In this document: one piece after another, positions 4,340 to 28,256 of the stretch
Numbering within the stretch: position 1 is the stretch's first letter
How the letters are laid out: each line of letters begins with the position of its first letter
From: a virus
Virus record (IMG/VR): IMGVR_UViG_3300044819_000079
Span: 1 to 37,278 of that record
Length of the DNA: 37,278 nt
Reading direction: 5' to 3' (one strand)
Made by a program: the position numbers and the translations under genes
The notes under the pieces: generated by a model
The model's input: the letters and a program-made list of their open reading frames with translations, nothing else
What the model was told of the DNA's origin: nothing
Database searches by the model: none

Positions 4340-4597
4340 ATGAAGCTCCCCACGATCGTCCGAACATGCGACGCGTGCGATGGGACGGGAGTGCTCGGCA
4401 AGGGGCCCGTTGTTGTCGTGTGCGCCGGGTGCCACGGCAACGGCTATGTCGAGCAAACCTACAAGCCATTCTCCGGGCAGAAGAAGCGCGACGACGTCCA
4501 GCGCGTCAGGCGCTCCGGCGGCTGGCTCTCTGCGCCGGCGAACCCCAAAACCGTCGGCATTTCCTACAAGGACTTCATGAAAGGCAAACGACCATGA
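4340..4597 (+). CDS. DnaJ-type zinc-finger small protein, 85 aa
   Basis: The N-terminus has two CxxCxGxG-type repeats, C10-x2-C13-DGTG and C28-x2-C31-HGNG. This is the half-site pattern of the DnaJ cysteine-rich domain, which binds one zinc. The remainder is a basic tail with no J domain, so this is a stand-alone zinc knuckle, common in phage early regions and of unknown role. AGGAGG precedes the start, and the stop overlaps the next ATG (ATGA). Confidence 0.7.
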   Translation: MKLPTIVRTCDACDGTGVLGKGPVVVVCAGCHGNGYVEQTYKPFSGQKKRDDVQRVRRSGGWLSAPANPKTVGISYKDFMKGKRP

Positions 4598-6290: not shown

Positions 6291-8369
6291 ATGGAAGTGC
6301 CCAAGCTGGTCGTCCTCCCGGGCGGCAAGCTCGACGAACCGTCCGGTGACTACATCCACCAGGTCTTCGGCGCCGGCGGCTACCTCGCCGCCCAGGTCGC
6401 CGGCTATCAGCCGCGGCCCGGGCAGATCAAGCTCGCGCGCGCGATCGACCACGGCATCCGCACCGGCCACCACGTGATCGGTGAGGGGCCGACCGGCACC
6501 GGCAAGTCGCTCGCGTACTCGGTGCCCGCGGTCTATCACGCGATGTTCTCGGGCAAGCGGATCTGCATCGTGACCGCGAACAAGAACCTGCAGCGGCAGA
6601 TCTACCAGAAGGACCTTGCCGACCTCGCGAAGGCCGTGCCGTGGAAGTTCAAGTACGCCATCCGCAAGGGGCACTCGAGCTACCTGTGCCTGCGCAACCA
6701 TGAGGCCCGCGAGTGGCGCGAGCTGCTGTTCGAAGATTCCAAGCTTGCGGAGATCGTCAACGACACCGCCGAATGGGCGGACGACACCGAGACCGGCGAC
6801 TTCGAGGACAGTCCGGGGCCGCCGCCCAAGGTGTGGTCGGCGTTCTCGACCAGCCGCGAGGACTGCGACGGCCGCAAGTGCCGCCAGTTCGAGGAGTGCT
6901 TCGCCAAGCTCGCGCGCGATCGCGCGCAGAGCGCACACGTCCTGGTCACCAACTACCACCTGTTCTTTTTGCACCTGAAGTTCGGGCTCGAATCGAAGAT
7001 CTTGCCCAACTTCGATGTGGTGATTCTCGACGAGGCGCACAACGCCGCGAACATCGCGCGCGAGTTCTTCGGCCAGGAGGTGACGTGGGGGCAGATCTAC
7101 CGGTGCATCAAGGGCCTCCACACGATCGACGTGACCGCCTTCAAGCTGCCAGGCCAGCGGATGCGCGATGCGGTGATGGAGGACGTCGGCAAGCTGTGGG
7201 CCGAGCTCGGCGGCCGCGCGCGCGCGCGCAAGCACATCCTCAAGCAGGACCATCCGATCCCTAGCGAGGCGCTCGAGGAGCGGCTCAAGGAGGCCGCTGC
7301 GCTCTACCACCAGGTCGCCGAGGCGTTGGCGCCGATCGGCGAGGCGACCATCGTGAGCAAGGCCCGGGCGTCCGAGGCGGCCACCTACGCCAAGCTGGCT
7401 GCGAAGTGCACCGAGAAGGCGGCCGCGCTCGGGGAGTTCCGGGTGGTCGCGAACGAGCACACCACCTACTTCATCGAGGGCTCGGGCAACGAGGACAAGG
7501 GCAAGTTCGTCAAGCTGAAGTCCAAGGCGATCGAGGTCGGCTCGGCGATGCGGCACCTGCTGTTCGAGCGCTACAAGACGGTGGTGCAGACCTCGGCGAC
7601 GCTCGCGGTCCGCGGCGGCGCCGGCGGGGACTTCGCCTACCTGCGCCGCGAGATGGGGATGGGCAAGATGGGCGAGCTCGCGGACCTCGACATCGAGGAG
7701 CTCGTGGTGGCATCCCCCTTCGACTGGCCCCAGCAGGCGATGTTGGTGATCCCGCGGACGATGCCGACCTTTCAGACCGGCAGCGAGATCTGGGACCAGG
7801 CGGTGTGCGACCACCTCGAGCAGACGGTCAACATGGTGGAGGGCCGCACGCTCGGGCTGTTCACCAGCTTCCGCATGCTCCAGAAGGCGGCTGCGCACCT
7901 GCGCGCCACGACGAGCTGGCGGGTCCTGGTGCAGGGCGAGGCAACCAACCGCGAGCTCGCGGCGCAGTTTCAGGCCGACGTCGGCTCGGTGCTGCTCGGG
8001 ACCGAGTCGTTCTCGGAGGGGGTGTCGATCGAGGGTGAGGCGTGCACCTGCGTCGTGCTCGACAAGATCCCTTTCCTCAACGCGGACGATCCGGTGATCC
8101 AGGCGATCGAGGCGAGGCACAAGGCCCGCGGCGGCCGCGAGAACGTGTTCCAGACCCACATGCTTCCCGAGGCCATCATCAGCTTCAAGCAGCGGGTGGG
8201 GCGGCTGATCCGCACGGTGACCGACGTTGGGGTGGTGGTAGTGCTCGACAAGCGGCTGATCACCAAGCCGTACCGGACCCAGTTCCTGAAGAGCATCCCG
8301 CCGCTGCGGACCGAAGAGAGTCTCAGTGCGATCGAGCCGTTCCTGCGCTCGCGCGGTGCGCTGGCATAA
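6291..8369 (+). CDS. DinG/XPD-like superfamily 2 helicase with Fe-S cysteines
   Basis: The 692-residue protein has an SF2 helicase core. Walker A is GEGPTGTGKS (about 64-73), a DEAH box lies in VVILDEAHN (about 243-251), SATL is near 433, and QRVGRLIR near 631 is the arginine-finger motif VI. Four cysteines at 133, 192, 197 and 203 fall between motifs I and II, the position and spacing of the 4Fe-4S cluster in XPD/DinG helicases. It should therefore be a 5'-3' DNA helicase acting on forked or R-loop substrates. GGAAGGAGCACC precedes the ATG. No exonuclease domain is fused to it. It is the largest plus-strand gene here. Confidence 0.9.
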   Translation: MEVPKLVVLPGGKLDEPSGDYIHQVFGAGGYLAAQVAGYQPRPGQIKLARAIDHGIRTGHHVIGEGPTGTGKSLAYSVPAVYHAMFSGKRICIVTANKNLQRQIYQKDLADLAKAVPWKFKYAIRKGHSSYLCLRNHEAREWRELLFEDSKLAEIVNDTAEWADDTETGDFEDSPGPPPKVWSAFSTSREDCDGRKCRQFEECFAKLARDRAQSAHVLVTNYHLFFLHLKFGLESKILPNFDVVILDEAHNAANIAREFFGQEVTWGQIYRCIKGLHTIDVTAFKLPGQRMRDAVMEDVGKLWAELGGRARARKHILKQDHPIPSEALEERLKEAAALYHQVAEALAPIGEATIVSKARASEAATYAKLAAKCTEKAAALGEFRVVANEHTTYFIEGSGNEDKGKFVKLKSKAIEVGSAMRHLLFERYKTVVQTSATLAVRGGAGGDFAYLRREMGMGKMGELADLDIEELVVASPFDWPQQAMLVIPRTMPTFQTGSEIWDQAVCDHLEQTVNMVEGRTLGLFTSFRMLQKAAAHLRATTSWRVLVQGEATNRELAAQFQADVGSVLLGTESFSEGVSIEGEACTCVVLDKIPFLNADDPVIQAIEARHKARGGRENVFQTHMLPEAIISFKQRVGRLIRTVTDVGVVVVLDKRLITKPYRTQFLKSIPPLRTEESLSAIEPFLRSRGALA

Positions 8370-10003: not shown

Positions 10004-10019
10004 CCGGCGATCAGCCGGC
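10003..10019 (+). promoter_or_regulatory. GCCGGC-GATCA-GCCGGC hairpin at stop codon
   Basis: Two GCCGGC copies, each self-complementary, flank a five-base loop and can form a 6-bp GC-only stem beginning on the last base of the stop codon. A T-rich tract follows only 16 bases later, so this is not a textbook intrinsic terminator. It may act as a weak terminator or an mRNA 3'-end stabiliser before the next operon. Confidence 0.35.
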
Positions 10020-10027
10020 GCGGCGGC

Positions 10028-10081
10028 GTGATCACTTTTCTTTGTTTCCCACTTGCCGAATCACACCGCGTGTGATCAAAC
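10028..10081 (+). promoter_or_regulatory. operator/promoter candidate with 7-3-7 palindrome
   Basis: A perfect inverted repeat ATCACAC-CGC-GTGTGAT occupies 10060-10076, and a related palindrome GTGATCAC lies at 10028-10035. The segment is AT-richer than its surroundings. TTGCCG (10053-10058) and TCAAAC (10076-10081) are 17 bases apart and weakly resemble -35 and -10 boxes, which would place the palindrome in the promoter spacer, a classical position for a repressor or activator site. Evidence for the palindrome is direct; the promoter boxes are poor matches. It would control the H1-like/HerA operon. Confidence 0.45.
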
Positions 10082-10091
10082 TCGATCCACC

Positions 10092-10583
10092 ATGAAGAAC
10101 ATCACTGACGCCACGAGCGAGAACAGCAGCGAGTCGATGGAGACCGTCGACCAGGACGAGAAGAAGGAGGTACCCGTGTCGAACAAGAAGGCGCCGAAGG
10201 TCCAGCGGGCCAAGGGCAGCAAGAAGGCCGCGGTCAAGAAGACCGCCAAGGCCAAGACCGCCAAGAAGTACGCGGCCGGTCACAAGAAGACCAGTGCGAA
10301 GAGCAAGCAGGGTCAGAACGGCCCGGCGCTCGAGCTGAAGGTCAGCAAGATGTCCAAGGACGAGAAGAAGCTCGTCACCGCCATCTACACGCCCAAGGGT
10401 GACCGCAAGCCGCACACGATCCGCGAGCTCCAGACCGTTCTCGGCGGTAGCCTGAAGGCTCCGACCACGCCGGCGCGCAATGCGCTGCGGCGCCTCGTGC
10501 GCGCGGGCTGGTTCGAGAAGGCGGACCGCGGCTCGTACAAGCTGACCGAGAAGGGTCGCAAGCGCGGCATCAAGGAGGACTGA
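10092..10583 (+). CDS. histone H1-like protein with winged-helix-like C-terminus
   Basis: The product (163 aa from the ATG) has an acidic leader (about 1-27), a Lys/Ala-rich H1/Hc1-like region (about 30-75, with KKAAVKKTAKAKTAKK), and a C-terminal domain (about 88-163) reading like a winged helix: HTIRELQTVLG, then ARNALRRLVRAGWFEKAD and YKLTEKGRKRG. It should bind and compact DNA without strong specificity, or recruit other factors. Codon bias begins at this ATG, but an in-frame GTG at 10176 has a stronger AGAAGGAGGT site, so a shorter 135-residue form lacking the acidic leader is likely made as well or instead. It abuts the ATPase gene with no gap. Confidence 0.75.
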   Translation: MKNITDATSENSSESMETVDQDEKKEVPVSNKKAPKVQRAKGSKKAAVKKTAKAKTAKKYAAGHKKTSAKSKQGQNGPALELKVSKMSKDEKKLVTAIYTPKGDRKPHTIRELQTVLGGSLKAPTTPARNALRRLVRAGWFEKADRGSYKLTEKGRKRGIKED

Positions 10584-12356
10584 GTGGCCGAACCGGTCGC
10601 GATCCTTCTGGCGGACGACTTTCCCCTGCCGCCAGAGGTCGTGACCGAGTCGGTCGCGATCATCGGCCGCAAGGGATCTGGCAAGACCTTCACCGGCGGC
10701 CGGCTGTTCGAGCAGATGTTCAAGATCGGCGCCCAGTGCGTCGTCCTCGATCCGGTCGGCCGCTGGTACGGCCTGCGACTCGCCGCCAACGGCAAGAGCA
10801 AGGGACTCGACATCCCCGTGTTCGGCGGCCGCTATGGCGACATTCCGATCACCCCGCAGGGTGGCAAGCTGATGGCTCAGACGATCGTGGGCCGCGGGAT
10901 CAGCTGCGTCATCGACCTCATGAACTTCCGGCCGACCGCTCGCAAGACCTTCGTCACCGAGTTCGCCGAGGAGCTCTACGAGCTGAAGAAGAGCGACAGC
11001 CGGCCGATGCACCTGTTCCTCGAGGAGGCCCGCAAGTTCATCCCGCAGACCCAGCGGGGTAAGCAGGACACCAAGATGATCGAGGCCTTCGAGGATATCG
11101 TGCGCCTGGGCCGCAACTACGGTCTGGGGGTCTCGCTGATCGATCAGCGCCCCCAGTCGGTCAACAAGGAGGTCCTCAGCCAGACCGAGATCCTCATCGT
11201 CCACCAGCTCACCGAGAAGCTGGGGCGCAAGGAGATCGAGGACTGGGTCCGCGACAAGACCACCAAGGGAGCCGAGGCCCTGGGGGACCTCGACAAGCTC
11301 CACACCGGAGAGGCCTTCGTGTGGAGCCCGGGCCTCCTGCGGTCCTTCTCAAAGGTCAAGGTCGGCAAGAAGTCGACCTACGACTCGAGCTCGACGCCCA
11401 AGGTTGGCGAACAGCGCAAGGGGCTCACGCAGCCGCTCTCGAGCAAGGAACTCGAGGGCATCAAGACCGCGATGGCGGACATGGTGGTGGAGGCTCAGGC
11501 CAACGATCCGACCGCGCTGCGCGCGCGGGTCCGCCAGCTCGAGGGCGAGCTCGCCAGGGTCCCCAAGGTGAAAGAGATCTCCATCGAGGTTCCCCACACG
11601 GTTGAGGTGCCCGTGCTGGATCCCGAGGTGGTGGTCCTCTGCGGGGACCTCGAGGCCAGGGTGCAGATGGGCCTCTCGGCGATCGGCACGCAGGTCGGCG
11701 CGATCGCCCATGTGCTCACGCAGTTCACCAGCGACATCACCAAGCGCGCCGCCCAGAAGATCAACGCAGCCTTCGTGAAGAAGCTCGAGGCGAACGGTCA
11801 CCAGCGACTGTCGCCGGCACCGACCATGGTGACGCGGCCGCACAGGGACCAGGCACCAGCGGCCACAGGGGACCTGACGCGCGTCGAGCTGAAGATCTTG
11901 GGGGCCCTGGCGTGGTTCGAGGACCTCGGGATCGTGACGCCCCCAATGGAGGCCGTCGCGTTCATGGCGGGGTACCGCCCAGGCGGGGGGGCCTTCGGGA
12001 ACCCCAAGGGGGCCCTGCGCACCAAGGGGATGATCGACTACCCAAGCTCGGGCATGATCAGCCTGACCGACCTGGGTCGCAAGCACGCGCCGCCCTCGGA
12101 GTTGCCGCGCGATGCGAGGTCGCTACAGGCTGCGGTGCTCGCGAAGTTGAGCGGGCCCGAGCAGCGCATCATGAAGCCCCTGCTTGAGCGGTGGCCCAAT
12201 CACATCGACAACGACGAGCTCGCCGCGGCCGCGGGCTACGCGCCGGACGGAGGAGCCTTCGGCAATCCCCGCGGCCGGCTGCGGACGCTGGGGCTCTTGC
12301 ACTATCCAAGCACAGGCAAGGTTCGCGCGGCGGACCTGCTGTTCCCCAGGAGCTGA
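10584..12356 (+). CDS. HerA/FtsK-type ATPase with tandem C-terminal repeats
   Basis: The 590-residue protein has Walker A GRKGSGKT (28-35), a helicase-HerA-like central region with HLFLEEARKF as Walker B (143-151), and LGRNYGLGVSLIDQRPQSV, the sensor-like segment typical of HerA/DUF87 ATPases. A coiled region follows (about 300-340). Two similar C-terminal units at about 462 and 551 share the pattern GYxPxGGAFGNPxGxLRTxGxxxYPS, apparently duplicated winged-helix modules. HerA proteins are hexameric DNA translocases; the cellular partner NurA is not adjacent. The GTG start directly abuts the H1-like gene, indicating coupling. A role in DNA translocation, segregation or repair is likely but unproven. 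Confidence 0.8.
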   Translation: MAEPVAILLADDFPLPPEVVTESVAIIGRKGSGKTFTGGRLFEQMFKIGAQCVVLDPVGRWYGLRLAANGKSKGLDIPVFGGRYGDIPITPQGGKLMAQTIVGRGISCVIDLMNFRPTARKTFVTEFAEELYELKKSDSRPMHLFLEEARKFIPQTQRGKQDTKMIEAFEDIVRLGRNYGLGVSLIDQRPQSVNKEVLSQTEILIVHQLTEKLGRKEIEDWVRDKTTKGAEALGDLDKLHTGEAFVWSPGLLRSFSKVKVGKKSTYDSSSTPKVGEQRKGLTQPLSSKELEGIKTAMADMVVEAQANDPTALRARVRQLEGELARVPKVKEISIEVPHTVEVPVLDPEVVVLCGDLEARVQMGLSAIGTQVGAIAHVLTQFTSDITKRAAQKINAAFVKKLEANGHQRLSPAPTMVTRPHRDQAPAATGDLTRVELKILGALAWFEDLGIVTPPMEAVAFMAGYRPGGGAFGNPKGALRTKGMIDYPSSGMISLTDLGRKHAPPSELPRDARSLQAAVLAKLSGPEQRIMKPLLERWPNHIDNDELAAAAGYAPDGGAFGNPRGRLRTLGLLHYPSTGKVRAADLLFPRS

Positions 12357-12357
12357 C

Positions 12358-13602
12358 ATGGCATCGCACGAACACGACAGGCTGGTGTACGACTTGGAGA
12401 CGGAGGCGCTCGTCCTCGAGGAGAAGAACTATCACACGGCCGCGTCAGCGGTGAGGCGGGCGTTGGCCGCCCTCGCTCATAAGCGCCAGAGCGGCATGGA
12501 GAGCAAGCACGAGCACTGGGTGATGATGACCCTCAACTTCCTCAAGGACCTCGACATCCCGTTCTACAACCGAGCTCCCAACGGAGATCGGATCAAGGGA
12601 GACAAGGACATCCCCGAGCGGTTGATGTTGGCGATCGAAAAGTTCAAGGAGCTGGAGAGATCGTGCAAGGAGGCGCGCACCGCCATGTACAAGGCGAACG
12701 ACAGGGTCGCCGAGTACAAGCAGCACCTGCTGGCGATGCGCGCGGTCGCGCAGGCGGCCGCACCCGGAGACGGATCCGTCGCGACCATCCTGGCGATCGC
12801 GGACACTGTTCCCGAGTTGCGGGTTCAGCAGCCGAAGGGACCGGACGATCGCGGTGTGCGGCGTGTCGAGATCGACGCGCGCGAGGTCGTGCTCCGGCTC
12901 GGCATGCAGACGGTGCGACACGACCTGGCGCCGGACGAGGAGATCTGCCCGCAGTGTCTGGGCCTCGGCCTGCTCAAGTGCGATTCGTCGTACGGCATCG
13001 GCGAGCAGAAGCCCCGCGAAGACGCCTTCCCGTACCACTATCAATGGATCGCCCCATGCCACATCTGCTACATGGGCAAGGTCAAGATCTGCGGGCACTG
13101 CAAGAAGGTTGTCGAGCGGGCCCAGGTCGAGTGCCACTGCGAGGTCGCGAGGTACCAGCGCGGCCGTGAGCAGTGGACCGCGGAGATCGAGCGTCGCAAG
13201 GGCTTGCCCCGGATCCCGCTGGTCGAGTACGCCGGCGAGATGCTCTGGGCGTCCGAGGCCAAGCGGTACATCATGTCCGAGTCGGCCGAGGACTTTCTCG
13301 AGGCTAACGCGGACGAGGTGTTTTTCGCATGCAAGCCGATCTCGAGCTCGGTGCTACCGGAGGCGTCCGACATCATGGAGCGGATGGAGGAGCAGGCTTA
13401 TGACGCCGCGAACCCCGAGCCCGATGGCGATCCCGTCCTCGAGTTCGCATCGGGGGCTGCGGAGGAGCTCGACGCACTCCTCTTGCAATGGACAGACAAG
13501 AACGTCACCGCCCGAACGCTCTGGTACGAGGACCGGAACCTCATCGTAGAGGTCCCCGTTCCAGGCATAAGCGAGACGGATGCGGCGAACCCGGACGCCT
13601 AG
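12358..13602 (+). CDS. zinc-binding protein with ten clustered cysteines
   Basis: AGGAG precedes this ATG, one base after the ATPase stop. Residues 1-130 appear helical (long Lys/Glu-rich segments). Residues 197-261 hold C197, C200, C208, C234, C237, C245, C248, C259, C261 and a Cys-His mix. The pairs CPQC-LGLG and CHIC-YMGK resemble DnaJ-type knuckles, enough for two or three zinc ions. The C-terminal 150 residues are acidic, with FLEANADEVFF and a helical tail. It completes a three-gene operon with the H1-like protein and the HerA-like ATPase, so may be their adaptor or DNA-binding partner. Its stop TAG shares the CTAG tetramer with the convergent gene's stop. Confidence 0.7.
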   Translation: MASHEHDRLVYDLETEALVLEEKNYHTAASAVRRALAALAHKRQSGMESKHEHWVMMTLNFLKDLDIPFYNRAPNGDRIKGDKDIPERLMLAIEKFKELERSCKEARTAMYKANDRVAEYKQHLLAMRAVAQAAAPGDGSVATILAIADTVPELRVQQPKGPDDRGVRRVEIDAREVVLRLGMQTVRHDLAPDEEICPQCLGLGLLKCDSSYGIGEQKPREDAFPYHYQWIAPCHICYMGKVKICGHCKKVVERAQVECHCEVARYQRGREQWTAEIERRKGLPRIPLVEYAGEMLWASEAKRYIMSESAEDFLEANADEVFFACKPISSSVLPEASDIMERMEEQAYDAANPEPDGDPVLEFASGAAEELDALLLQWTDKNVTARTLWYEDRNLIVEVPVPGISETDAANPDA

Positions 13603-14729
13603 CCGGTGACGGTGACGGACACCACGTTGGTGGCCACCAGGTTCGGCGCGGCGCCGCCAGCGAGCGCGATCTTGATCGCGCTGCCCTCGATGGTCACCAG
13701 ATCGGTGCACGGCAGAATCGCACCAGTCGCGGAGCGCACGGTGTACGAGAAGTTCTGCGGCGTGAACGGGAAGTCGATGTAGACCTTGGTGGCCGTGATG
13801 TGCTGGGCCGTGATGATGATGGAGCCCAGCGCCGTTCGCACGCCGGTGGCCTCGCCGGTTTCGTTGAGGTTGGCGCGGTCCCACACGTCGGCGCCGGCCG
13901 TGAGGGTCTCGGACACCGCCACGCTGATCGGCGACTCGGCCACCGGGTTGCCACCGCGCGCATCGGCCTCGCGCACGCGGATGCGCGAGGTGTCGATCAG
14001 GTCGGCGACGACCAGGCCGGCGAACGGCGTGGTCGCCTGGACCACCGTCGCATCGGTCGTGCCGTTGATCGCGTTGATCGCCGAGGTGCGGCTCGCAGCC
14101 GCGGAGGCACCGATGGTGATCTGGGTGAAGGTCGTCGCGGCACCGAGCGAGGTCACGAACTTGAAGGTGTGGCCACCGATCAAGAAGGTGTCGTTGTTCG
14201 TGGGGATGCTCGCCATGTTGAGGCGCGCGCTGGGGATGACGCCGTTGGTGTCGAGACCGAGCTTGGAGCGGTTCCAGATGTTGCCGGCATCCGTCATGCT
14301 CTGGGACACCGCGACGCCAACGGCCGAGGTGTCGACCGGGAGACCGCCGCGCGATTCGGCCTGACGCACGCGCATGTGCGTGCTGTCGATCAGGTCGGCG
14401 ACGACCAGGCTGGCGAGTGGCGTGGTGGCCTGTACCACCGTCACGTCGGTCGTGCCGTTGACTGCGTTGATGGACGAGGCCAGCGTTGCGGCGGCAGAGG
14501 TACCGATCTTTACCTGGGTGAAGGTCGTCGCGGCCGCGAGTGCGGTCACCGTCTTGAAGACGTTCCCGTCGATCGTGAAGGTATCCCCGTTGCTCGGGTT
14601 GACCGCCATGTTGAGGCGGGCGCTGGGAATGCCGCCGGTGGAGTCGAGGCCATCGAGCGCCTGGTCGTGCTCGGCGAGCTTTGCCTTGATCTTCCGCGGT
14701 GACATCGACGTGAGATTGATGCGGCCCAT
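13599..14729 (-). CDS. two-repeat beta-rich protein, probable virion surface or moron product
   Basis: The 376-residue protein has a helical start (MSPRKIKAKLAEHDQALDGL), then two ~131-residue repeats beginning IPSARLNM at residues 34 and 165. Each contains FTQ-x-IG-SAA, a GTTD-TVVQATTP segment and ADLIDS/T-R-V-R. A C-terminal beta domain follows (KVYIDFPFTPQNFSYTVRSA). The Thr/Ala/Val-rich, Cys-poor composition resembles phage decoration or fibre proteins, but I recognise no family. It is the only minus-strand gene between 1 and 29039 and has its own promoter and a GGGAGAA ribosome site. No dedicated terminator is seen; its 3' end meets the zinc protein gene. Confidence 0.75.
   Translation of the reverse strand: MGRINLTSMSPRKIKAKLAEHDQALDGLDSTGGIPSARLNMAVNPSNGDTFTIDGNVFKTVTALAAATTFTQVKIGTSAAATLASSINAVNGTTDVTVVQATTPLASLVVADLIDSTHMRVRQAESRGGLPVDTSAVGVAVSQSMTDAGNIWNRSKLGLDTNGVIPSARLNMASIPTNNDTFLIGGHTFKFVTSLGAATTFTQITIGASAAASRTSAINAINGTTDATVVQATTPFAGLVVADLIDTSRIRVREADARGGNPVAESPISVAVSETLTAGADVWDRANLNETGEATGVRTALGSIIITAQHITATKVYIDFPFTPQNFSYTVRSATGAILPCTDLVTIEGSAIKIALAGGAAPNLVATNVVSVTVTG
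13845..14630 (-). repeat. two 393-bp in-frame tandem repeats
   Basis: Residues 34-164 and 165-295 of the reverse-strand gene align without large gaps, so the DNA is a tandem pair of 131-codon units. Conserved blocks include PSARLNM, TTFTQ, GTTD-x-TVVQATTP and VVADLID. The copies have clearly diverged, so the duplication is old rather than a recent slippage or assembly artefact. Confidence 0.7.
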
Positions 14730-14823: not shown

Positions 14824-15147
14824 ATGACCAACGAATTCTCGGGCAAGCTGGCCGAACGACGCTTCCGCGAGGCCGATGCCTGGTGGCTGTGCTTCGACAT
14901 GGCGGTGCATCGCTATCGGTGCTGGGCGATGTTGTACCGAGCTCGCAAGGGATGTCGCCGACGACTGCCCCGCCGGCTCGAGGCGACCTACCTAATCCGA
15001 ATCGCCGACCAAATCAACGAGGCCCACGATCATCTGGTCCTTGAAGTTGAGAACATCTGGACAGCTGCTCGCTGCGCGGTGGCAGCCGAGATGGCGGGGA
15101 AGATCTACGATGAAGAATGCGACGATCGGCCCGCTCGCGTGGGCTAA
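14824..15147 (+). CDS. hypothetical Trp/Arg-rich helical protein, 107 aa
   Basis: GGAGGTGGCG precedes the ATG, which is divergent from the reverse-strand gene with 94 bases between them. The product begins with ADAWWLCFDMAVHRYRCWAM, followed by a strongly basic stretch (RARKGCRRRLPRRLE) and a C-terminal helix. The basic patch suggests nucleic-acid contact. It overlaps the next gene by 38 bases. No family recognised. Confidence 0.6.
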   Translation: MTNEFSGKLAERRFREADAWWLCFDMAVHRYRCWAMLYRARKGCRRRLPRRLEATYLIRIADQINEAHDHLVLEVENIWTAARCAVAAEMAGKIYDEECDDRPARVG

Positions 15148-15817
15148 CGGAGAGTGGAATCCGATCTATCGACACCCGCATGCTACCTGCTGCGCGCTGT
15201 TCCTGGCGCGTCTGCGGATCTCCCAGCTGGGGCGCTGGCGCAGACCGATGCGGCTGCTGGTCGGCGGCAACGATCTGTTCGGGACAGGAATCCCCGACGA
15301 CGCGATCCGCGACATCTACCGCACGATGATGGACTACCCGGCACACACCTTCTTGGTGGTCACGAAGAACGCCTTTCGCATGGAGCAGTGGTTTGGATCA
15401 TGGGCCGGGACGGAGTTGCAGGAGTGGGCGATGGATCAGGACATCGACTGGCCGCCACAGAACATCCATCTCGGAATCGTCGCCCATGATCAGGACACGC
15501 TCGATGATCGGCTCGGCGCGTTGATCGCGTCGCCGGCACGCAGCCGGTTCGTGGTCTTCTACAAGGTGCATAGCCGCATCAACCTGATGGATGTGGAGTG
15601 CCCCCGCGGATACGGTCCCGAGTTCACTCGATCCTGCGAGATATGCCAGGGGTCGCTGAGCGTTTGCTACAACGGAGTCTACAACGCGCTCAAGCAAGGA
15701 ATCGACGAGGTCGTGCTACTACGAGCTCGGGGGCCGGATGACCTTCTCCAGCTGCAGCTCGAGCTCGATCTGACGGAGCAGTGCCGCCAGCACAACGTCC
15801 CCATCTACCACCTGTGA
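15110..15817 (+). CDS. diverged DUF5131-like paralogue
   Basis: The 235-residue product follows the central part of the DUF5131 protein at 266-1252: VGGNDLFGTGIPDD (51-64) for the NSVSDFFHE block, TFLVVTKNAFRM (80-91) for YQVLTKRTAR, and WPPQNIHLGIVAHDQDTLDDRL (114-134) for PLPNVHLGASVEHQ. The family's CYAE box and its cysteine cluster are missing; the N-terminus has only ATCCAL, and other cysteines (164, 176, 179, 186) come late. It is shorter by almost 100 residues and has YKV where the EPILGP segment is expected. It is probably a degenerate or repurposed copy. The assignment rests on by-eye motif order. Confidence 0.6.
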   Translation: MKNATIGPLAWANGEWNPIYRHPHATCCALFLARLRISQLGRWRRPMRLLVGGNDLFGTGIPDDAIRDIYRTMMDYPAHTFLVVTKNAFRMEQWFGSWAGTELQEWAMDQDIDWPPQNIHLGIVAHDQDTLDDRLGALIASPARSRFVVFYKVHSRINLMDVECPRGYGPEFTRSCEICQGSLSVCYNGVYNALKQGIDEVVLLRARGPDDLLQLQLELDLTEQCRQHNVPIYHL

Positions 15818-17254: not shown

Positions 17255-17416
17255 ATGCCGGACGAGCCCGAGGACAAGGACGACGACAAGGACGCGATGG
17301 AGGAGGCCGAAGACGAGGTCGAGGCCGAGGACGAGAAGGACAAGGAGGAAGGGGAGGAGGACGAGAAGGAGGAGGACGAGAAGGAAGAGGAACACGACGG
17401 CGACAAGGAGGACTAA
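17255..17416 (+). CDS. extremely acidic 53-aa protein
   Basis: An AAGGAG site precedes this ATG and the frame ends just before a strong terminator. By count, 35 of 53 residues are Asp or Glu and 7 are Lys, with no aromatic residue. It must be unfolded alone or a polyanionic ligand-like tail. Phage proteins of this character can mimic DNA or bind basic partners such as histone-like proteins (an H1-like protein is encoded at 10092), but no direct evidence shows this. The low-complexity sequence also makes homology detection unreliable. Confidence 0.55.
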   Translation: MPDEPEDKDDDKDAMEEAEDEVEAEDEKDKEEGEEDEKEEDEKEEEHDGDKED

Positions 17417-19100: not shown

Positions 19101-20225
19101 GTGACCGAAGAAGTGATGGATCTAAGTTCTCTCTCGTTTGCGGATGACATCGTGCGCGCCGGCGACGCACAGATCAGCTGGCTGAAGGTGCTCGCCTACG
19201 GGCCCTCGGGCGGTGGCAAGACTTCGCTGATGGCGACCATGCCTGAACCGCTTCTGGTGATGGTCACCGAGAAGCAGGCCGAGATGACGATCAAGCGGGT
19301 CAACCCGAACGCGTACATCCGGTACATCGAGGACAAGGTGATCTGCAAGTGCCACGGCAAGGAGGTAGATCGCTGCCCGACCGGCGCGAAGAAGGGCACC
19401 GAGAAGCTGACCGCCAAGCAGGTGCTCTACAGCATGCTCGACGAGCTCGCGACGAAGCGACACCCATTCAAGTCGGTGGCGCTCGACTCGTTGACCGACC
19501 TGCAGCAGGTGCTGTTGTCGGACATGAAGGGCGGTGTTCCCGGCAAGAAGGTGAGCTTGCCCGAGTGGGGCACGCTCATCGATCAGACCAAGGACGTCGT
19601 CATCAAGCTGCGCAACCTGAACATGCACGTCGGGGTGATCTGCCTGTCCGACGAGGTGCAGGACAACAACCAGCGGATGATCTGCCGGCCGGCGCTCGCC
19701 GGCAAGAAGCTCCCCGGCTCGATCATCCAGTACTTCAACCTCTGCGGCTTCCAGCGTAAGGAGCGCGATTCGAACGCGGTTGGCCACGCGAGCTACCAGA
19801 CGGTGTTCGACGCCGGCGACGAGTACTACACCAAGACCCATCCGGCGCTCGAGGCGATCGAGGCGCCGGTGTTCCGCAGCTGGGTCGACAAGGTCACCAA
19901 GTACGCCGTCGAGCACGGCGAAGGTGACATGCCGTCGTCCTCGGCGCCGGTGCGCCAGGCGGTGCAAGAAAAGAAAGCAGCCGACGACATCAAGTCGCGG
20001 ATCAACAACCCCAAGATCAAAGAGCTCTTCGACAAGCTCGACGCGCCCGAGGCCAAGCGGCTGGCATCGGCGGAGAAGTACCGCAACGATGCCAAGCTGA
20101 TCGAGATCCTCGAGAAGAGACTTGTTGAACAGACGGCCGCGGCAGAGAAGGCCGCCGGCGAGAAAGCGGCCGCAGAGGCTGCAGCGCAGGCCGCAGCACC
20201 CCAGACGGAGGCAGCACCGGCATGA
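19101..20225 (+). CDS. Sak4-like RecA-fold ATPase (AAA_24)
   Basis: The 374-residue protein has Walker A GPSGGGKT (34-41), Walker B SVALDSLTDL (D129), and the AAA_24/Sak4 organisation of phage nucleotide-binding proteins that act as annealing-type recombinases. An insertion at 82-92 adds C82-x-C84-H and C92, a possible zinc knuckle. The C-terminal 120 residues are Ala/Glu/Lys-rich and probably flexible. It should work with the nuclease gene that follows by ATGA overlap and with the single-stranded DNA-binding protein downstream. GTG start with GGAAGG upstream. Annealing activity is inferred from the family. Confidence 0.8.
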   Translation: MTEEVMDLSSLSFADDIVRAGDAQISWLKVLAYGPSGGGKTSLMATMPEPLLVMVTEKQAEMTIKRVNPNAYIRYIEDKVICKCHGKEVDRCPTGAKKGTEKLTAKQVLYSMLDELATKRHPFKSVALDSLTDLQQVLLSDMKGGVPGKKVSLPEWGTLIDQTKDVVIKLRNLNMHVGVICLSDEVQDNNQRMICRPALAGKKLPGSIIQYFNLCGFQRKERDSNAVGHASYQTVFDAGDEYYTKTHPALEAIEAPVFRSWVDKVTKYAVEHGEGDMPSSSAPVRQAVQEKKAADDIKSRINNPKIKELFDKLDAPEAKRLASAEKYRNDAKLIEILEKRLVEQTAAAEKAAGEKAAAEAAAQAAAPQTEAAPA

Positions 20226-21418
20226 AGTTGCTCAAGGTCCTCGGGAGCGAGCTGAAGATCCGGCTCTCTCCATCCTTCATCCAGAATGCGGCGTGCCCGG
20301 CCTACCTGAAGTTCCGGTACGTCGACAAGGTCAACGAGAAGTACGTGCGCGTCGAGGCCGAGCGCGGCAAGGCGGTCCACGGCGCGATCGCCGAGCTGCT
20401 TGAGTTCTGCCGCACCCAATCGTGCGAGGTCTCCGACCTCGAGCCGCAGACGCTGGCCGAGGCGGTCCAGCGCAACATCAGCCCGCGCATCCTGGGCGAG
20501 ACCGGCCTGGTGCTCGAGTGGGTGAAGCTGTGGCAGACCAGGTTCGAGATGCCGGCGAACATCCACGGCATCGAGGAGAAGATCAGCATCGACGACGAGT
20601 ACGACGAGTGCGCATGGGAGGATGCCAGCTATCGCGGGATCATCGATCTAACCGAAGTGCGCGGCTCGCACTGCATCGTGTGGGACTGGAAGAGCCAGCC
20701 CCACATCGTGTCGCAGAGCGAGATCGATCTACCGCTCGGCAACGACATGGCCGAGCAGATGACCCACTACTGCTGGATGCTGTGGAAGCTGTACCCGCAC
20801 CTGCGAACCTGGACGGTGCGGGTCTGGTACTTGCGCTACGGCTTCTACATGGAGACGAGCCGGACGGTCGATGATCTGATCGCGTTCGAGAATGCGCTGA
20901 TGATCAAGGAGAAGAAGATCAGCGAGATCGAGAACTGGGATCCGCAGCCCGGCCGCCACTGCCAGTACTGCGACTACATCCAGCTGTGTCCGATCGCCCA
21001 GGACTTGAGCCCTGGCAACTCCGAGGTGATCACCCAGGAGCAGGCGGTGCTAGCAGCACAGCGGGCGACGGTGTACGAGGCGCTGACCAAGCAGCTGAAG
21101 GCCAAGCTCAAGATCTACGTGAACCACAACGACGACGTGCGGATCGGTGACAACTGGACCTACGGGTACAAGCACAAGGAGAGCGTGGAGTGGGACCCGA
21201 AGGCAGCGGAAGAAACGCTGCGCGGGCACAACCGCGAGCTCTCCGAGGTGGCGAACGTCAACGTGAAGAAGATGAAGAAGGCCCTGAAAAAGTTCGAGCA
21301 CGAGGAGCCGATGCTGGCGGCCGAGCTCGTCGACCTCTGCAAGACCAAGCACAAGACCGAGTTCAAGGGCTTCCAACAGGGCGAAGAGGATGCTGACCAG
21401 CCGGGGGAAGAGGGGTAA
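20222..21418 (+). CDS. Cas4/RecB-like PD-(D/E)XK nuclease with Fe-S cysteines
   Basis: The 398-residue product has the RecB-type nuclease motifs: H53 in GKAVHGAI, D142 in YRGIIDL, D155-x-K157 in VWDWKSQ, and Q179-x3-Y183 (QMTHY). Cysteines C25 and C247-x2-C250-x5-C256 match the 4Fe-4S arrangement of Cas4 and AddB nucleases, one N-terminal and three C-terminal. It should be a metal-dependent DNA exonuclease. A C-terminal extension of about 130 residues, helical and acidic (ending DADQPGEEG), is not typical of Cas4. There is no CRISPR array or other cas gene, so a role in phage recombination with the Sak4-like ATPase is more likely. Confidence 0.85.
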   Translation: MKLLKVLGSELKIRLSPSFIQNAACPAYLKFRYVDKVNEKYVRVEAERGKAVHGAIAELLEFCRTQSCEVSDLEPQTLAEAVQRNISPRILGETGLVLEWVKLWQTRFEMPANIHGIEEKISIDDEYDECAWEDASYRGIIDLTEVRGSHCIVWDWKSQPHIVSQSEIDLPLGNDMAEQMTHYCWMLWKLYPHLRTWTVRVWYLRYGFYMETSRTVDDLIAFENALMIKEKKISEIENWDPQPGRHCQYCDYIQLCPIAQDLSPGNSEVITQEQAVLAAQRATVYEALTKQLKAKLKIYVNHNDDVRIGDNWTYGYKHKESVEWDPKAAEETLRGHNRELSEVANVNVKKMKKALKKFEHEEPMLAAELVDLCKTKHKTEFKGFQQGEEDADQPGEEG

Positions 21419-22154: not shown

Positions 22155-23540
22155 ATGTCCGACAAGAACAGCCTGGTCACGATCGTCAAAGATCCGCCCA
22201 AGCCACCGCGACGCACCTGGCTCGATCCCAGCCAGGTCGCACCGCATCGTGCCGTCGAGGTTGTCACCGAGGAGGAGAAGCGACACACCGCACAGGTGGA
22301 GCACCACGCGGAGCTGCCGAAAGACTTCTACAAGCGCATCCCGATCGTGCAGCCGCCACTCGTGCCCGGCGCCGAGGTGAACTGCGAGACGCTGCTCGGG
22401 TTCCTCGCGGCGCTGCAGACGATCCTTCCGCCGGAGACGAACTACCCGATCTTGGGTAGCGCGAAGATCGGCTACGACCCCGCGGCCGCGAAGCTCTACC
22501 TCGAGGCCGGTAGCCACGCGGTGTGGACGATGATCGCGCTGCAGGTGGTGTCCGGAACCGACAAGGGGTTCTCGGCCATCATGCCGATCCAGCGCGCCAA
22601 GAACGTGCTGATGGCGTTGCGCGATGTGGCTCCGACCGTAGTGGTCGGCGTCGACGAGCTCGGCGTGTGCCTCGGGCCGCACACGGTCCCGTTCGGTGGA
22701 CCCATCGATGACTTCCCAGATCAGCCCGTGGTGATCGACTGGGTCGCGCGCGCGGCCGTGCCGGTCACGTACTTCCGGGACATCGCCGATCGCGTGCTCG
22801 TGGCGCGCAGCGAGGACTTCAAAGAGACCGCCATCCAGGGAGCGCTGATCGACTTCGAGTTCATGGACTACGAGGGCGCGTCGATGCCGCTGTGCACGGT
22901 GGTGGCAACCGACGCGAACCGGATCCACATCTTGCGGCTGCCGAGGATGATGATCGAGGTGAAGCAGACGCACCTGCGATCGCTGCCCCCGACGTGCACG
23001 GTGGCCGCGGGCTTCTTCAGCTTCCTCAAGGAGATCGCCCAACCGGAATGGGCCTGCCTCGAGCTCGCGCGCGACCAGGTCGTCGCCAAGGGACCGGACT
23101 TCGTGGTCATCGCCAAGGCAGCCACCGAGGCCAAGAGCTCGCTCAACGAGCTCGTGTCGTGGCGCAAGGTCAACATCGACTACCCGGGCTACTGGCTCGC
23201 CGCCGGCGTCCAGATCGTCGACGTCGTCAAGCGGGCGGGCCAGGGCGGCAGGGCGATCGAATGCAAGCTGGTGATCGATCGGGGTCGTGAGGCGCTCACG
23301 GTCTCGTCGATCACCGAGGCCGGCGAACGGTTCTCGGCCAGCGTGCCCGTGCGCGGGTTCGATGGCATGCCCGTCGAGGTGCGGCTGTCGATCATGTACC
23401 TGCTCGAGGCCCTTGGCGCGTGCACCGGCGGTCTGGTACGGCTGGCCTTCACCGCCGACGTCGACGCACAGGCGACCTCCCCCGTGGTGATCCGGGGCGA
23501 GGACGAACAGTTCAAAGCGATCATCATGCCGCGTCTCTAG
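22155..23540 (+). CDS. divergent DnaN-like sliding clamp
   Basis: The 461-residue product shows beta-clamp landmarks. ATDANRIHIL at 251-260 matches the clamp segment ATDGxRLA, and the last 60 residues read RLSIMYLLEALGA, then VRLAFTADVDAQATSPVVIR and IIMPRL at the extreme C-terminus, the canonical clamp ending. It would encircle DNA and tether polymerases and nucleases. It is about 95 residues longer than bacterial DnaN; residues 1-65 are a charged, probably flexible extension. Overall similarity is low, so the call rests on these landmarks and the replication context. A QLNLF-like clamp-binding tail occurs in the protein at 3002-3316. Confidence 0.65.
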   Translation: MSDKNSLVTIVKDPPKPPRRTWLDPSQVAPHRAVEVVTEEEKRHTAQVEHHAELPKDFYKRIPIVQPPLVPGAEVNCETLLGFLAALQTILPPETNYPILGSAKIGYDPAAAKLYLEAGSHAVWTMIALQVVSGTDKGFSAIMPIQRAKNVLMALRDVAPTVVVGVDELGVCLGPHTVPFGGPIDDFPDQPVVIDWVARAAVPVTYFRDIADRVLVARSEDFKETAIQGALIDFEFMDYEGASMPLCTVVATDANRIHILRLPRMMIEVKQTHLRSLPPTCTVAAGFFSFLKEIAQPEWACLELARDQVVAKGPDFVVIAKAATEAKSSLNELVSWRKVNIDYPGYWLAAGVQIVDVVKRAGQGGRAIECKLVIDRGREALTVSSITEAGERFSASVPVRGFDGMPVEVRLSIMYLLEALGACTGGLVRLAFTADVDAQATSPVVIRGEDEQFKAIIMPRL

Positions 23541-24054: not shown

Positions 24055-24682
24055 GGTTCCGTGCGCCGGCTGCATCCGGCTGCTCCACATCGCGCGAGCT
24101 CGCCGGCGAGTAGATCGCAACAAGATCCACATCGTTCGATCTTGGTGTCGGGTCTGCGGCCTGCCCGCGCTGCTCGAGGTCGTCAACGACTACGAGCTTG
24201 CCAAACGCAACCTCTACGCTTTGGATGATCAACCGATGGCGCACCGTAACATTCACGCCAGCAAGGGAGGCTGGGGCGTGCACTGGCGTTTCGACGAGGT
24301 CCTCGCCGCGGTGTTCTGGCACGAGGAGCACTGCTGGCCGACACCGCCTTGGTACGAGTTCCGCGAGCGCATCGAGTCGCCGGTCACCGTGCTGACAAGC
24401 AAAGAGGAGATCACCGAGGCATCTCGCAAGGACGTCGACGTCGAGCTTCGCATGCTGCGCGAGGCGCTCAATCGCAAACCAAGGACACGAGAGGAGCTGA
24501 CGATCTGGAGCCAGATGCCCGTGTGGGACACCAATGAGATGGCGGCGCAGTTCGAGGTCCTCGGGTACAAGGCGCCGTTTGCCATCGTGGTTCACAAGGA
24601 GACCCGCGAACGCGGTAGCGTCCTGTTCCAGGATGGCCCGCCGCGGCTCTACTTCGGGTTCGATCCAGATCGAGTGATATGA
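24038..24682 (+). CDS. hypothetical zinc-type protein, 214 aa
   Basis: The ATG lies within the previous gene. Residues 9-40 contain CAGC and CRVC pairs, a likely zinc ribbon (PCAGCIRLLHIARARRRV, SWCRVCGLPALLE). The middle holds HWRFDEVLAAVFWHEEHCW, rich in His and Trp, which might bind a metal. The C-terminal part is a basic alpha/beta segment ending in DPDRVI. It is unrecognised but coupled by ATGA to the next gene. Confidence 0.55.
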   Translation: MTVSHEVPCAGCIRLLHIARARRRVDRNKIHIVRSWCRVCGLPALLEVVNDYELAKRNLYALDDQPMAHRNIHASKGGWGVHWRFDEVLAAVFWHEEHCWPTPPWYEFRERIESPVTVLTSKEEITEASRKDVDVELRMLREALNRKPRTREELTIWSQMPVWDTNEMAAQFEVLGYKAPFAIVVHKETRERGSVLFQDGPPRLYFGFDPDRVI

Positions 24683-24858
24683 CGAACTGCTTCCTGTGCC
24701 AGAAGAACATCGACGCCGGCAAGGCCGCGGTGTCGATTGTTGGCGGCCAGTACCCGATCGAGGACCCGGACTTCTTTATGGTCGACGAGGAGGTTCTGCG
24801 CGAAGCTCACGCGCACTTCGAGTGCTGGATACAAACCCTGCCGAAGAGGACCAAATGA
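24679..24858 (+). CDS. small Cys-pair protein, 59 aa
   Basis: The ATG overlaps the previous stop (ATGA) and its own stop overlaps the next ATG (ATGA), so translation is coupled on both sides. The product starts MTNCFLCQKNIDAGKAAVS and has AHAHFECW near its end: one CxxC pair plus two His and one Cys, enough for a single zinc site. Between them is a short beta segment VSIVGGQYPIEDPD. Codon use is phage-like throughout, so it is a real gene. Confidence 0.6.
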   Translation: MTNCFLCQKNIDAGKAAVSIVGGQYPIEDPDFFMVDEEVLREAHAHFECWIQTLPKRTK

Positions 24859-25355
24859 TCTCGCTGTTTCTGAAAGTCGTGATGATGATCTCTGCCGCGG
24901 TGGATCTGAGCCACAGCATCGAGCCCTTCAGCCCGCACTTCTCGCCCGAGCAGCGGCTCGAGTACGCCGGCTACATGGTGGTCGCCGGCGAGCAGTACGG
25001 CATCGACCCCTACCTCATCGCCGGCGTCATGTGGCACGAGTCGGACTTCAACAACCTTCCGACCAACGCGACCAACGACACCGGTCTCATGCAGGTCCAC
25101 TGGCAACGGCTGAGCTCGAATGAGCACTGGCTCGACGGGATCACGAAGAAGGATCTACTGGATCCTCGCATCAACATCTTCGCTGGCGTCCAGGAGCTGG
25201 CGCACATGCGCGAGTTCTGCGCGAGCCAGCACCACCACGGCCACAACTACTGGGCCCATCTGAAATGGGGGGTCGTGGTAGGATCTAGATCTTACGACCT
25301 CTCCATCCTTCGCCAGTACGAACAGCTACGCAAACGGCTCCGCAGTACCTCGTGA
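24855..25355 (+). CDS. lytic transglycosylase (SLT domain)
   Basis: The 166-residue product has an N-terminal hydrophobic segment (about 1-17) that may be a signal peptide. An SLT core follows: YGIDPYLIAGVMWHESDF with the catalytic glutamate at E62, and DTGLMQVHW (75-83), the GLMQ motif. These enzymes cleave peptidoglycan to form 1,6-anhydro sugars and serve in lysis or cell-wall entry. Because the gene sits among replication and zinc proteins, away from the structural operon, a lysis role is more likely than a tail-associated one. It overlaps the neighbouring genes by four bases on both sides. Confidence 0.8.
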   Translation: MISLFLKVVMMISAAVDLSHSIEPFSPHFSPEQRLEYAGYMVVAGEQYGIDPYLIAGVMWHESDFNNLPTNATNDTGLMQVHWQRLSSNEHWLDGITKKDLLDPRINIFAGVQELAHMREFCASQHHHGHNYWAHLKWGVVVGSRSYDLSILRQYEQLRKRLRSTS

Positions 25356-25645
25356 AGATCAAGGCCGAGCTCCACACTGACGAGGTGGCCCGCATTCGCG
25401 GGTTGACCAGTCTGGAGCTCGCCGAACGCTGCCCCGATCTGCGCACGGTGTTCCCTCGAACACCGTGCAGTAACGGCGGCTGCGACTACTCGATTCACGA
25501 GCGGGCCTACATGAACTGCATGTTCGTGGCATCCGAGGCTGGCGAGCACACGCTCGAGGCGATCGGCAAGATGATGGGCGTCAGCAAGCAGGGCGTGAAG
25601 GCCATCGAGGTGCGTGCGCTACTCAAGGTCAAACGCGGCACATAG
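25352..25645 (+). CDS. sigma region 4-like HTH protein, 97 aa
   Basis: The C-terminal third reads TLEAIGKMMGVSKQGVKAIEVRALLKVK (67-94), the helix-turn-helix of sigma-70 region 4. The N-terminal part has cysteines at 27, 39, 44 and 56 and no region 2. Stand-alone proteins of this layout occur in phages and are thought to influence transcription. The GTG start overlaps the transglycosylase stop. It may be a regulator of late genes, by inference. Confidence 0.7.
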   Translation: MKIKAELHTDEVARIRGLTSLELAERCPDLRTVFPRTPCSNGGCDYSIHERAYMNCMFVASEAGEHTLEAIGKMMGVSKQGVKAIEVRALLKVKRGT

Positions 25646-25654
25646 ATCAAGGCC

Positions 25655-26044
25655 ATGCCACCGTTCATCAACCGGGTCTGGATGCAGGGCCAGATCGTCA
25701 CCTCCCCGATCATCAAAGCGCTGAACCCGCGCACCAACCTCGCGGCCTTCCAGTTCGCGATGGTCGAGAGCTGGACGAACGACGATGGCGAGCAGCGCGA
25801 TCGCAAGAACCGGATCACCGTCGAGGTCGTGGGCCGCGACGCGGGATACGTGGCCGCGACGGCCAAGGTGGGAACGTGGGCGACGATCGAGGGCTACCTG
25901 CGCTCCGAGCAGTTCAAGGGGCAAGATCTGATCAAGATTCGCACGTTCTCGATTCACCTATGGGAGGCTCACGATGGTACGAGCAGAGAGGCCGCCGGCG
26001 GCCACCGAGGAGAGCCTGTTGCTCCGCTGGAAAAAGGCGGTTGA
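25655..26044 (+). CDS. OB-fold ssDNA-binding protein
   Basis: The 129-residue product reads like a single OB fold: NRVWMQGQIVTSPIIKAL, FQFAMVESW, a basic RDRKNRITVEVVGRDAGYV, and GTWATIEGYLRSEQF then IKIRTFSI. These are the five strands of the SSB/PriB class. It should coat single-stranded DNA during replication and annealing. The acidic-tip tail typical of SSB is lacking; the C-terminal 25 residues share DNA with the next gene. It fits with the Sak4-like ATPase, which usually has a partner SSB. Confidence 0.75.
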   Translation: MPPFINRVWMQGQIVTSPIIKALNPRTNLAAFQFAMVESWTNDDGEQRDRKNRITVEVVGRDAGYVAATAKVGTWATIEGYLRSEQFKGQDLIKIRTFSIHLWEAHDGTSREAAGGHRGEPVAPLEKGG

Positions 26045-26594
26045 GGCGCAGCTCGAGGTCGACCTACCGGGCTTCGCTGGCTTGTTCGAACAGGACCCGA
26101 AGATCTCTCCGTGGATCGCAACCCAGGAAGATCGCATCACGGCGGCGATCCGCGACGTCGACGAGGTGCTCTTTGAACAGGCCCTGGGTGCCTGGGCCAA
26201 AGCCCACGCCCGCGTCAACGAGATGCTCGCTGAACAGTACCGCGCAACGCATTCAGATCCCGAGCTGTGGGAGCTGCGCTACATCCGGTGGATGGCGAAG
26301 GTGCACTACATCGTGTTCGCCTCGCCCCGAGGCGAGTTCCTGCTCTACCCGCGTCGGCCGACGCGTCGTCCTGCCGTCGTGCACTGGTACACGGTAGAGG
26401 AGATGATCGACATGCTGCATCCGAACGCCATCGCCCTGATGGCGCTCTCGGACACGATGCCCGGCCGACCCGAGCTCGCCAGCAAGAAACCAGGCCCCAA
26501 CGAGAAGCACCTCCAGGTGCACGTCGAGAACGGCCAGGTGACCATGAAGTACGACTGTGGGGAGGTGCCATTTGCAGGAGAGGGGGTTCGTTGA
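25974..26594 (+). CDS. hypothetical protein, 206 aa
   Basis: The ATG lies inside the SSB-like gene (71-base overlap). The product starts with a helical region (SLLLRWKKAVEAQLEVDLPG), then has helical and beta segments with MAKVHYIVFASPRGEFLLYPR, and ends with a small beta domain. A DNA-metabolism role is suggested by location only. No catalytic motif is visible. Its end overlaps the nuclease gene that follows by 23 bases. Confidence 0.55.
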   Translation: MVRAERPPAATEESLLLRWKKAVEAQLEVDLPGFAGLFEQDPKISPWIATQEDRITAAIRDVDEVLFEQALGAWAKAHARVNEMLAEQYRATHSDPELWELRYIRWMAKVHYIVFASPRGEFLLYPRRPTRRPAVVHWYTVEEMIDMLHPNAIALMALSDTMPGRPELASKKPGPNEKHLQVHVENGQVTMKYDCGEVPFAGEGVR

Positions 26595-27102
26595 CGCGCT
26601 GATCAAGACGATTCATCGCCAGCACCCGGGCGCGACGACGTTGCGGGCGTCCGACAACTACACCCTCGGGATTCCCGACCTGATGATCTGGATCCCCCTC
26701 AGGACGGCAGATGGCGCACCGATCTTGCGGCGCACATGGTCCCTGGCGATCGAGGCGAAGGCCCTGCACCCGTTGATGCCCGACCCATTTCACCGCGGCC
26801 GTCGCATTGGCCAGATGCTGAAGCACCCGTTCACCGGGCCGCAGATCTCGCTGCTGCGCATGATGGCGCGGTCCGGCGTCGACGCCTTCGGCCTTGTCAG
26901 GGCGTCGGAGGACACTGCGTTCCGCATTCACCCCGACGCGTTGCCCGCCGAAACTGGCAACTTCACCTACGACGAGATGGTCGCGATCGGCCGCCCCATC
27001 AAGCGCGAGCACAACCTCTGGTTGTTCTCGTCTGGAGAAGCACATGATCAAGTACCTGGTGCAGGACATCGAGGCGATCCCGGAGACGGAACTTCAGGCT
27101 GA
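26572..27102 (+). CDS. VRR-NUC-like PD-(D/E)XK nuclease
   Basis: The 176-residue frame from a TTG start holds LGIPDLMIWI (D36) and LAIEAKAL (E61, K63), then GPQISLLRMMARSGVDAFGLVR with Q91. This D, E-x-K, Q order with a C-terminal GVDAFGLVR strand is typical of VRR-NUC/Holliday-junction-type small nucleases. GGGGAGG lies seven bases before the TTG; an upstream GTG at 26557 has no such site. The C-terminal part is basic and overlaps the exonuclease gene by 59 bases in another frame. Substrate is unknown; structured DNA at recombination intermediates is likely. Confidence 0.75.
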   Translation: MQERGFVDALIKTIHRQHPGATTLRASDNYTLGIPDLMIWIPLRTADGAPILRRTWSLAIEAKALHPLMPDPFHRGRRIGQMLKHPFTGPQISLLRMMARSGVDAFGLVRASEDTAFRIHPDALPAETGNFTYDEMVAIGRPIKREHNLWLFSSGEAHDQVPGAGHRGDPGDGTSG

Positions 27103-28217: not shown

Positions 28218-28256
28218 TCTTGTTGTTTTAGCCTGAGCGGGTCGGTAGGGTTGGGA

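Follow-up and report, generated by a model that had tools for sequence, protein, structure and literature searches.

The locus considered here raises the question of whether a basic winged-helix protein (A), a HerA-like ATPase (B) and a multi-cysteine protein (C), encoded side by side in a phage genome, form one dedicated DNA machine. HerA-type motors are known mainly from repair, where they act with NurA, and from defence, where they act with SIR2 or DUF4297, and a HAS domain is part of their architecture. The stretch of DNA analysed, referred to as the window, is the entire 37,278-bp virus record.

The A–B–C locus and its setting

Genes A, B and C are three consecutive, tightly packed plus-strand ORFs, and the coding signal is strong for all of them alike. 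The preliminary description of three abutting genes is borne out in coordinates, order and packing: the TGA stop of A ends at position 10583, B opens with GTG at the next base, 10584, and the AAGGAGG ribosome site lies within A; B ends at 12356 and C begins with ATG at 12358. A is translationally coupled to B. The palindromic control region that had been placed ahead of these genes exists as a perfect inverted repeat, ATCACAC-CGC-GTGTGAT (7-nt arms; 10060–10076, no strand), in the gap before A. It is a possible operator, but its occurrence is not above chance, because the window contains 100 perfect 7-nt inverted repeats with spacers of 0–12 nt (2.7 per kb). As a single copy of a common kind of repeat it was rejected as a specific operator, and no sigma-70-like promoter was found.

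The plus strand of the window carries mostly early and DNA-metabolism genes. By sequence match, this mainly plus-strand block includes a DinG/XPD-like helicase (6291–8369), a Sak4-like protein (19101–20225), a PD-(D/E)XK nuclease adjoining this Sak4-like recombinase (20222–21418), an SSB (25655–26044) and an exonuclease (26894–27937). Structural genes for the sheath (30156–32978) and capsid (36286–37176) lie on the minus strand at the right end. The window is a fragment of a larger phage genome, as a relative with the same capsid exceeds 121 kb, and those more distantly related by capsid are phages of 181–187 kb. Several other genes were recorded in passing. Two separate PHROG 2045 genes are present (95–1252 and 15041–15817), the second of which also matches Pfam DUF5131. 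A small protein encoded at 4340–4597 carries the DnaJ-type zinc-finger pattern CxxCxGTG...CxxCxGNG. An extremely acidic 53-aa protein with runs of E, D and K is encoded at 17255–17416, and an equally acidic small gene occupies the matching place in the relative G001 (23230–23505). On the minus strand, a convergent gene (13599–14729) overlaps the end of C by 4 bases; its product, possibly a virion surface protein, is internally repetitive (G.IPSARLNM...) and matches TIG weakly.

Gene A (10092–10583, plus strand) is supported as an ORF and by its coding signal, and encodes a 163-aa protein with a Lys-rich tail and a winged helix. The ATG at 10092 lacks a ribosome site, whereas the GTG at 10176 has a perfect one (AAGGAGGTACCC-GTG); the true product may therefore be the 135-aa protein that begins at GTG 10176. 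The basic, low-complexity tail spans residues 29–80 (10176–10331) and contains 17 K/R residues and no D/E. A winged-helix domain at residues 85–163 (10344–10580) is indicated by weak Pfam winged-helix matches, by an HHalign match of 80% to the first winged helix of B and by a low-confidence single-sequence model (m4e5a014ad724; pLDDT 67), in which the winged helix falls at approximately residues 89–157. A had been described as a Lys-rich, histone-like protein. The Lys-rich tail stands, as does the winged helix, the latter on a weak model, but the resemblance to linker histone H1 is one of composition and layout, a basic tail plus a generic winged helix, and the tail of A is N-terminal. No H1 sequence match was found for A. 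The structures closest to the pLDDT 67 model are winged helices, of the MarR type and others, each with E > 0.01; such folds make up most of the first 50 structure matches, which include no H1 fold and nothing at E ≤ 0.001. Searches of phages and plasmids gave no match to A, nor did the single-protein scan of viral contigs.

Gene C (12358–13602, plus strand) is an ORF for a 414-aa protein with an N-terminal helical domain, a Cys-rich, zinc-ribbon-like domain and a C-terminal domain. It has no family match above threshold and no match in phages or in the single-protein scan of viral contigs, and its relatives are those in the close relatives G025, G001, G029 and G026 described below. Ten clustered cysteines had been reported for C. 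The protein holds 11 in total, ten of which are conserved: nine are clustered at residues 197–261 (12946–13140, plus strand) in the pattern CxxC, C, CxxC, CxxC, CxC, and the tenth is the more distant C325. All nine and C325 are invariant between the window and G025, and the ten conserved cysteines would fit zinc binding.

B as a HAS-less HerA-type motor

Gene B (10584–12356, plus strand) encodes a 590-aa protein that profiles, Pfam and a structural model place as a minimal ATPase of the HerA/FtsK superfamily, with winged helices in tandem at its C-terminus. It scores above the cut-off for Pfam DUF87 and HerA_C, its best sequence matches are HerA, CedD and DUF87, and its profile matches HerA proteins in the PDB with E-values of about 1e-17 to 3e-22; no FtsK match was found in Pfam at E ≤ 1. 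Its earlier description as a HerA-like ATPase with winged-helix-like repeats is upheld by the DUF87 and HerA_C scores and by the repeats themselves.

The catalytic motifs of B are intact. Walker A (GRKGSGKT, residues 29–36; 10668–10691, plus strand) has G31, G33 and K34 invariant in 21 homologues, and Walker B (MHLFLEEA, residues 142–149; 11007–11030, plus strand), which aligns to the Walker B region of Sulfolobus HerA, has E147 and E148 invariant in the same 21. The arginine-finger and Q motifs (GRNYGLG...DQRPQSVNKE, residues 176–196; 11109–11171, plus strand) align to EGRKFGVG..SQRP of HerA, with G176, R177, Q188, R189 and K195 invariant. One homologue (L023 3523–6306) owes its length of 927 aa to a long insertion, intein-like at its start (CLTPDTEILTPGGWQRI...), that lies directly after its Walker B (VHVFLEE).

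In the 21-member alignment, the motor with its invariant motifs is followed by a coiled-coil stretch that varies and then by two modules at the C-terminus; the winged-helix-like character of these modules is read from profiles and predicted secondary structure. The first, wH1 (residues 432–508; 11877–12107, plus strand), is supported by alignment, model and HHalign. The second, wH2 (residues 512–590; 12117–12353, plus strand), is a tandem duplicate of wH1, with an HHalign probability of 99% for their homology.

B shares the RecA/HerA core, Walker A and B, arginine-finger and Q motifs with the HerA proteins of HerA–NurA repair and of DUF4297–HerA and SIR2–HerA defence. In its AlphaFold model (pLDDT 84), residues 2–276 align to HerA from residue 117 onwards, with Z up to 29. 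Since HerA residue 117 is aligned at residue 2–3 of B, there is no room for the HAS β-barrel, and Pfam gives no HAS match. The core of B is also approximately 85–90 residues shorter: about 114 residues separate Walker A from Walker B, versus about 203 in Sulfolobus HerA. The four-helix bundle that lies between these motifs in HerA is missing; 274 model residues span 360 of 4d2i. Further differences from HerA are the added coiled coil and two C-terminal winged helices, and the lack of a NurA or defence partner. The curated NCBIfam HerA model gives B 48 bits against a cut-off of 970. Keeping the core motifs and fold of HerA, but with no HAS domain, a shorter core and a low curated score, B is HerA-like in its core and yet not a canonical HerA. 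Judged by homology, B would be a HAS-less, minimal HerA/FtsK-superfamily dsDNA translocase.

FtsK/SpoIIIE offers a second comparison, as a translocase of the same superfamily in which a C-terminal winged helix follows the motor as its DNA-reading part. B resembles it in layout, with a motor ahead of predicted winged helices, and differs in that its sequence falls on the HerA side, it has two such predicted modules rather than one, and it has no membrane part and no known KOPS-like target.

Conservation of the trio in close relatives

Capsid and sheath searches identified the close relatives G001, G002 and G025–G029. Four of these, G025, G001, G029 and G026, cover the locus; G002, G027 and G028, judged by the position and strand of their capsid genes, do not and were left out of the counts. 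All close relatives are fragments, and absence here applies to the covered locus. A first conclusion that the trio is wholly unconserved was overturned by the capsid-based search, which brought in G025.

G025 (111.7 kb) has the order A, B, an extra gene D and full-length C. Its A (24357–24803) is 41–48% identical to that of the window and lies directly upstream of B (24807–26615; 50% identical). Gene D (214 aa) sits between B and the full-length C (27262–28590), which is 41% identical to that of the window and keeps 10 of its 11 cysteines. In G001 and G029, D is accompanied by a C of 137 and 172 aa, respectively, which corresponds to the N-terminal part and lacks the cysteine domain, and G026 has only a weak, short match to C, again in its N-terminal part. 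A profile search with positive controls found no B in G001, G026 or G029, and A was likewise absent from them. A and B are thus both present in two genomes and both missing from three, the window included in this count, and the long C goes with them. One of the four locus-covering relatives has all three genes, with D inserted between B and C; A and B are both missing from the other three, and the trio occurs at none of the 46 further HerA loci.

In a helicase tree, the window and G025 group apart from the remaining relatives. Because they group together, a single event suffices for the A–B–long C pattern, and one evolutionary event rather than recurrent linkage may explain it. Within what could be searched, the linked set of long C, A and B is confined to this small phage group.

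These data bear on the reading in which a single dedicated complex for DNA compaction and translocation is built from A, B and full-length C. The A–B–(D)–C order in both B-bearing genomes of the group would suit such a complex, as would the finding that, where B is missing, relatives carry C only in a short form that has no cysteine domain. It is nevertheless unlikely: the two genomes group together and count as one event, gene D intervenes in G025, the N-terminal domain of C is retained where A and B are missing, and neither A nor C occurs near the 46 other HerA loci. In its fullest form, this reading would cast A as a histone-like loader, B as a HerA motor without HAS that reads DNA direction through its tandem winged helices, and C as an adaptor that carries zinc and stands in for NurA, with all three gained or lost as one module; this version is more doubtful again. 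A dedicated three-protein machine is accordingly possible but weakly supported. Since the N-terminal domain of C exists independently of B, B is unlikely to need C in general, and only the small upstream neighbour A looks like a true companion of B.

In place of A–B, G001 and G029 carry an SNase-like gene and a gene in the opposite orientation. The two SNase-like genes (L029 16082–16489 and L074 12362–12769) are 75% identical to each other and point to a variable accessory spot. Two phages thus have A–B in this interval, where two relatives have an SNase-like gene together with other genes, as might be expected if the spot were swappable among DNA-acting effectors and A–B were a counter-host or counter-competitor module. 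HerA-type proteins are common in defence systems, as PADLOC matches illustrate, but these matches reflect only the shared ATPase core, and no nuclease or NADase effector partner is fused to or beside A–B; this explanation is also improbable.

The B family and its possible roles

Beyond this phage group, a single-protein scan of viral contigs with B found nothing; a scan with a two-sequence alignment yielded family members in 22 further viral contigs, and most of these share the full-length layout. The B family also occurs in the Podoviridae genome MW202482, in plasmids and in 23 bacterial contigs from many phyla. Proteins annotated 'HerA helicase / DUF87 domain-containing' in MW202482, Clavibacter pCSL1 and Mycolicibacterium plasmids belong to the same family over most or all of their length, at approximately 30–40% identity. 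Their neighbours differ from those in the window, with no A or C in the loci compared. Correspondingly, profiles of A and C found no relative of either in any of the 46 other HerA loci, which comprise 23 other phage genomes and 23 bacterial contigs, and the direct neighbours of B-family genes vary in nearly every locus. Within a known kind of motor, the B family is a variant that lacks HAS, and its annotations are scattered and generic; no description of the family or of the A–B pair was found among open-licence papers. As an accessory gene, the motor is found widely in phages and plasmids but is uncharacterised.

ParB_N proteins are the most frequent neighbours, found in 12 of the 46 loci and scoring above the cut-off in 10 of 25 records. 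Examples adjoining HerA, or one gene from it, come from unrelated phages and contigs (L007 8178–9983, L010 1196–2677, L017 8206–9813 and L041 3298–4788). The closeness is not significant (Fisher p = 0.11), so that ParB was set aside as a HerA partner and is a lead only.

The missing NurA had been singled out in the preliminary description. None is indeed encoded in the window, but this is no special feature: NurA was absent from all 25 records searched, including the window and 23 other HerA-bearing phages, where controls were found and where the virus records are all fragments except MW202482. Its absence in the window is thus the norm for the family. Canonical HerA pairs with nucleases such as those of the PD-(D/E)XK type, and the window encodes such a nuclease (at 20222–21418) beside the Sak4-like protein. 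In one reading, this nuclease replaces NurA and works with B in DNA-end processing. SbcC/Rad50-like ATPases (AAA_23), detected in six of the 25 records, would be in keeping with such a role. However, the nuclease is 53–54% identical in relatives without B, it lies 8 kb from B, and B lacks the HAS domain, which docks the partner in the DUF4297–HerA nuclease complex (PMC11291478); a nuclease partnership is rather unlikely. SbcC/Rad50- or SMC-like ATPases lie upstream of HerA at L007 5491–8160, L025 5775–8264 and L001 17482–18876. The SbcC/Rad50–HerA arrangement of some phages resembles archaeal HerA–Rad50 neighbourhoods.

A role as the genome-packaging motor was also considered. B shares with A32/B204-type packaging ATPases a minimal core without HAS, and its core covers B204 of STIV/STIV2 almost end to end (199 of 204 residues; Z 20.9). 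B is also matched by PHROG 2666, which is labelled terminase large subunit. B has an extra C-terminal half relative to these ATPases, and the phage group has a separate TerL. Pfam terminase models missed the TerL of this group, which was found through phrog_675 and the G027 TerL; G025 carries both B and this canonical TerL (70% identical to that of G027; phrog_675, E 4e-47). Because G025 has its own TerL, packaging was rejected as the function of B. MW202482, G003 and G020 likewise carry both a B-type HerA and TerL, the close relatives G001, G026 and G029 lack B, and B lies among early genes, leaving this role highly improbable.

It is proposed, with somewhat better than even confidence, that A and B are a real accessory cassette, in which a HAS-less HerA/FtsK-type translocase with loading heads is helped by A, and that C is inherited beside it. 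The intact catalytic motifs of B, its HerA core fold, the tandem C-terminal modules and the coupling of A to B in two genomes are all consistent with this proposal. A and B would then constitute a small early-gene cassette of a large myovirus-like phage. By homology, B would assemble as a ring and translocate, and its intact motifs suggest that it pumps dsDNA using ATP. The FtsK winged helix recognises KOPS and sets the direction of loading (PMC2680272). By analogy, the two winged helices of B, carried on a coiled-coil stalk, may bind DNA and set the place or direction of ring loading. A, as a basic winged-helix DNA binder, most likely helps B to engage DNA or regulates it, given that the two genes are adjacent in both B-bearing genomes of the group; A is not generally required, as the B family works without it elsewhere. 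C would be an older gene of the lineage that exists in a short form without A and B and owes its place beside B to inheritance; the long form, with its cysteines, may or may not act together with B. The likely job of B would be to process or move phage or host DNA in replication or recombination, rather than in packaging.

That a family lacking HAS and carrying tandem C-terminal winged helices is widespread in phages and plasmids, and keeps no constant neighbours, points to a translocase that is self-contained. The B family could help to explain the role of a HerA motor that has no nuclease partner, and the A–B pair provides a concrete, testable accessory protein.
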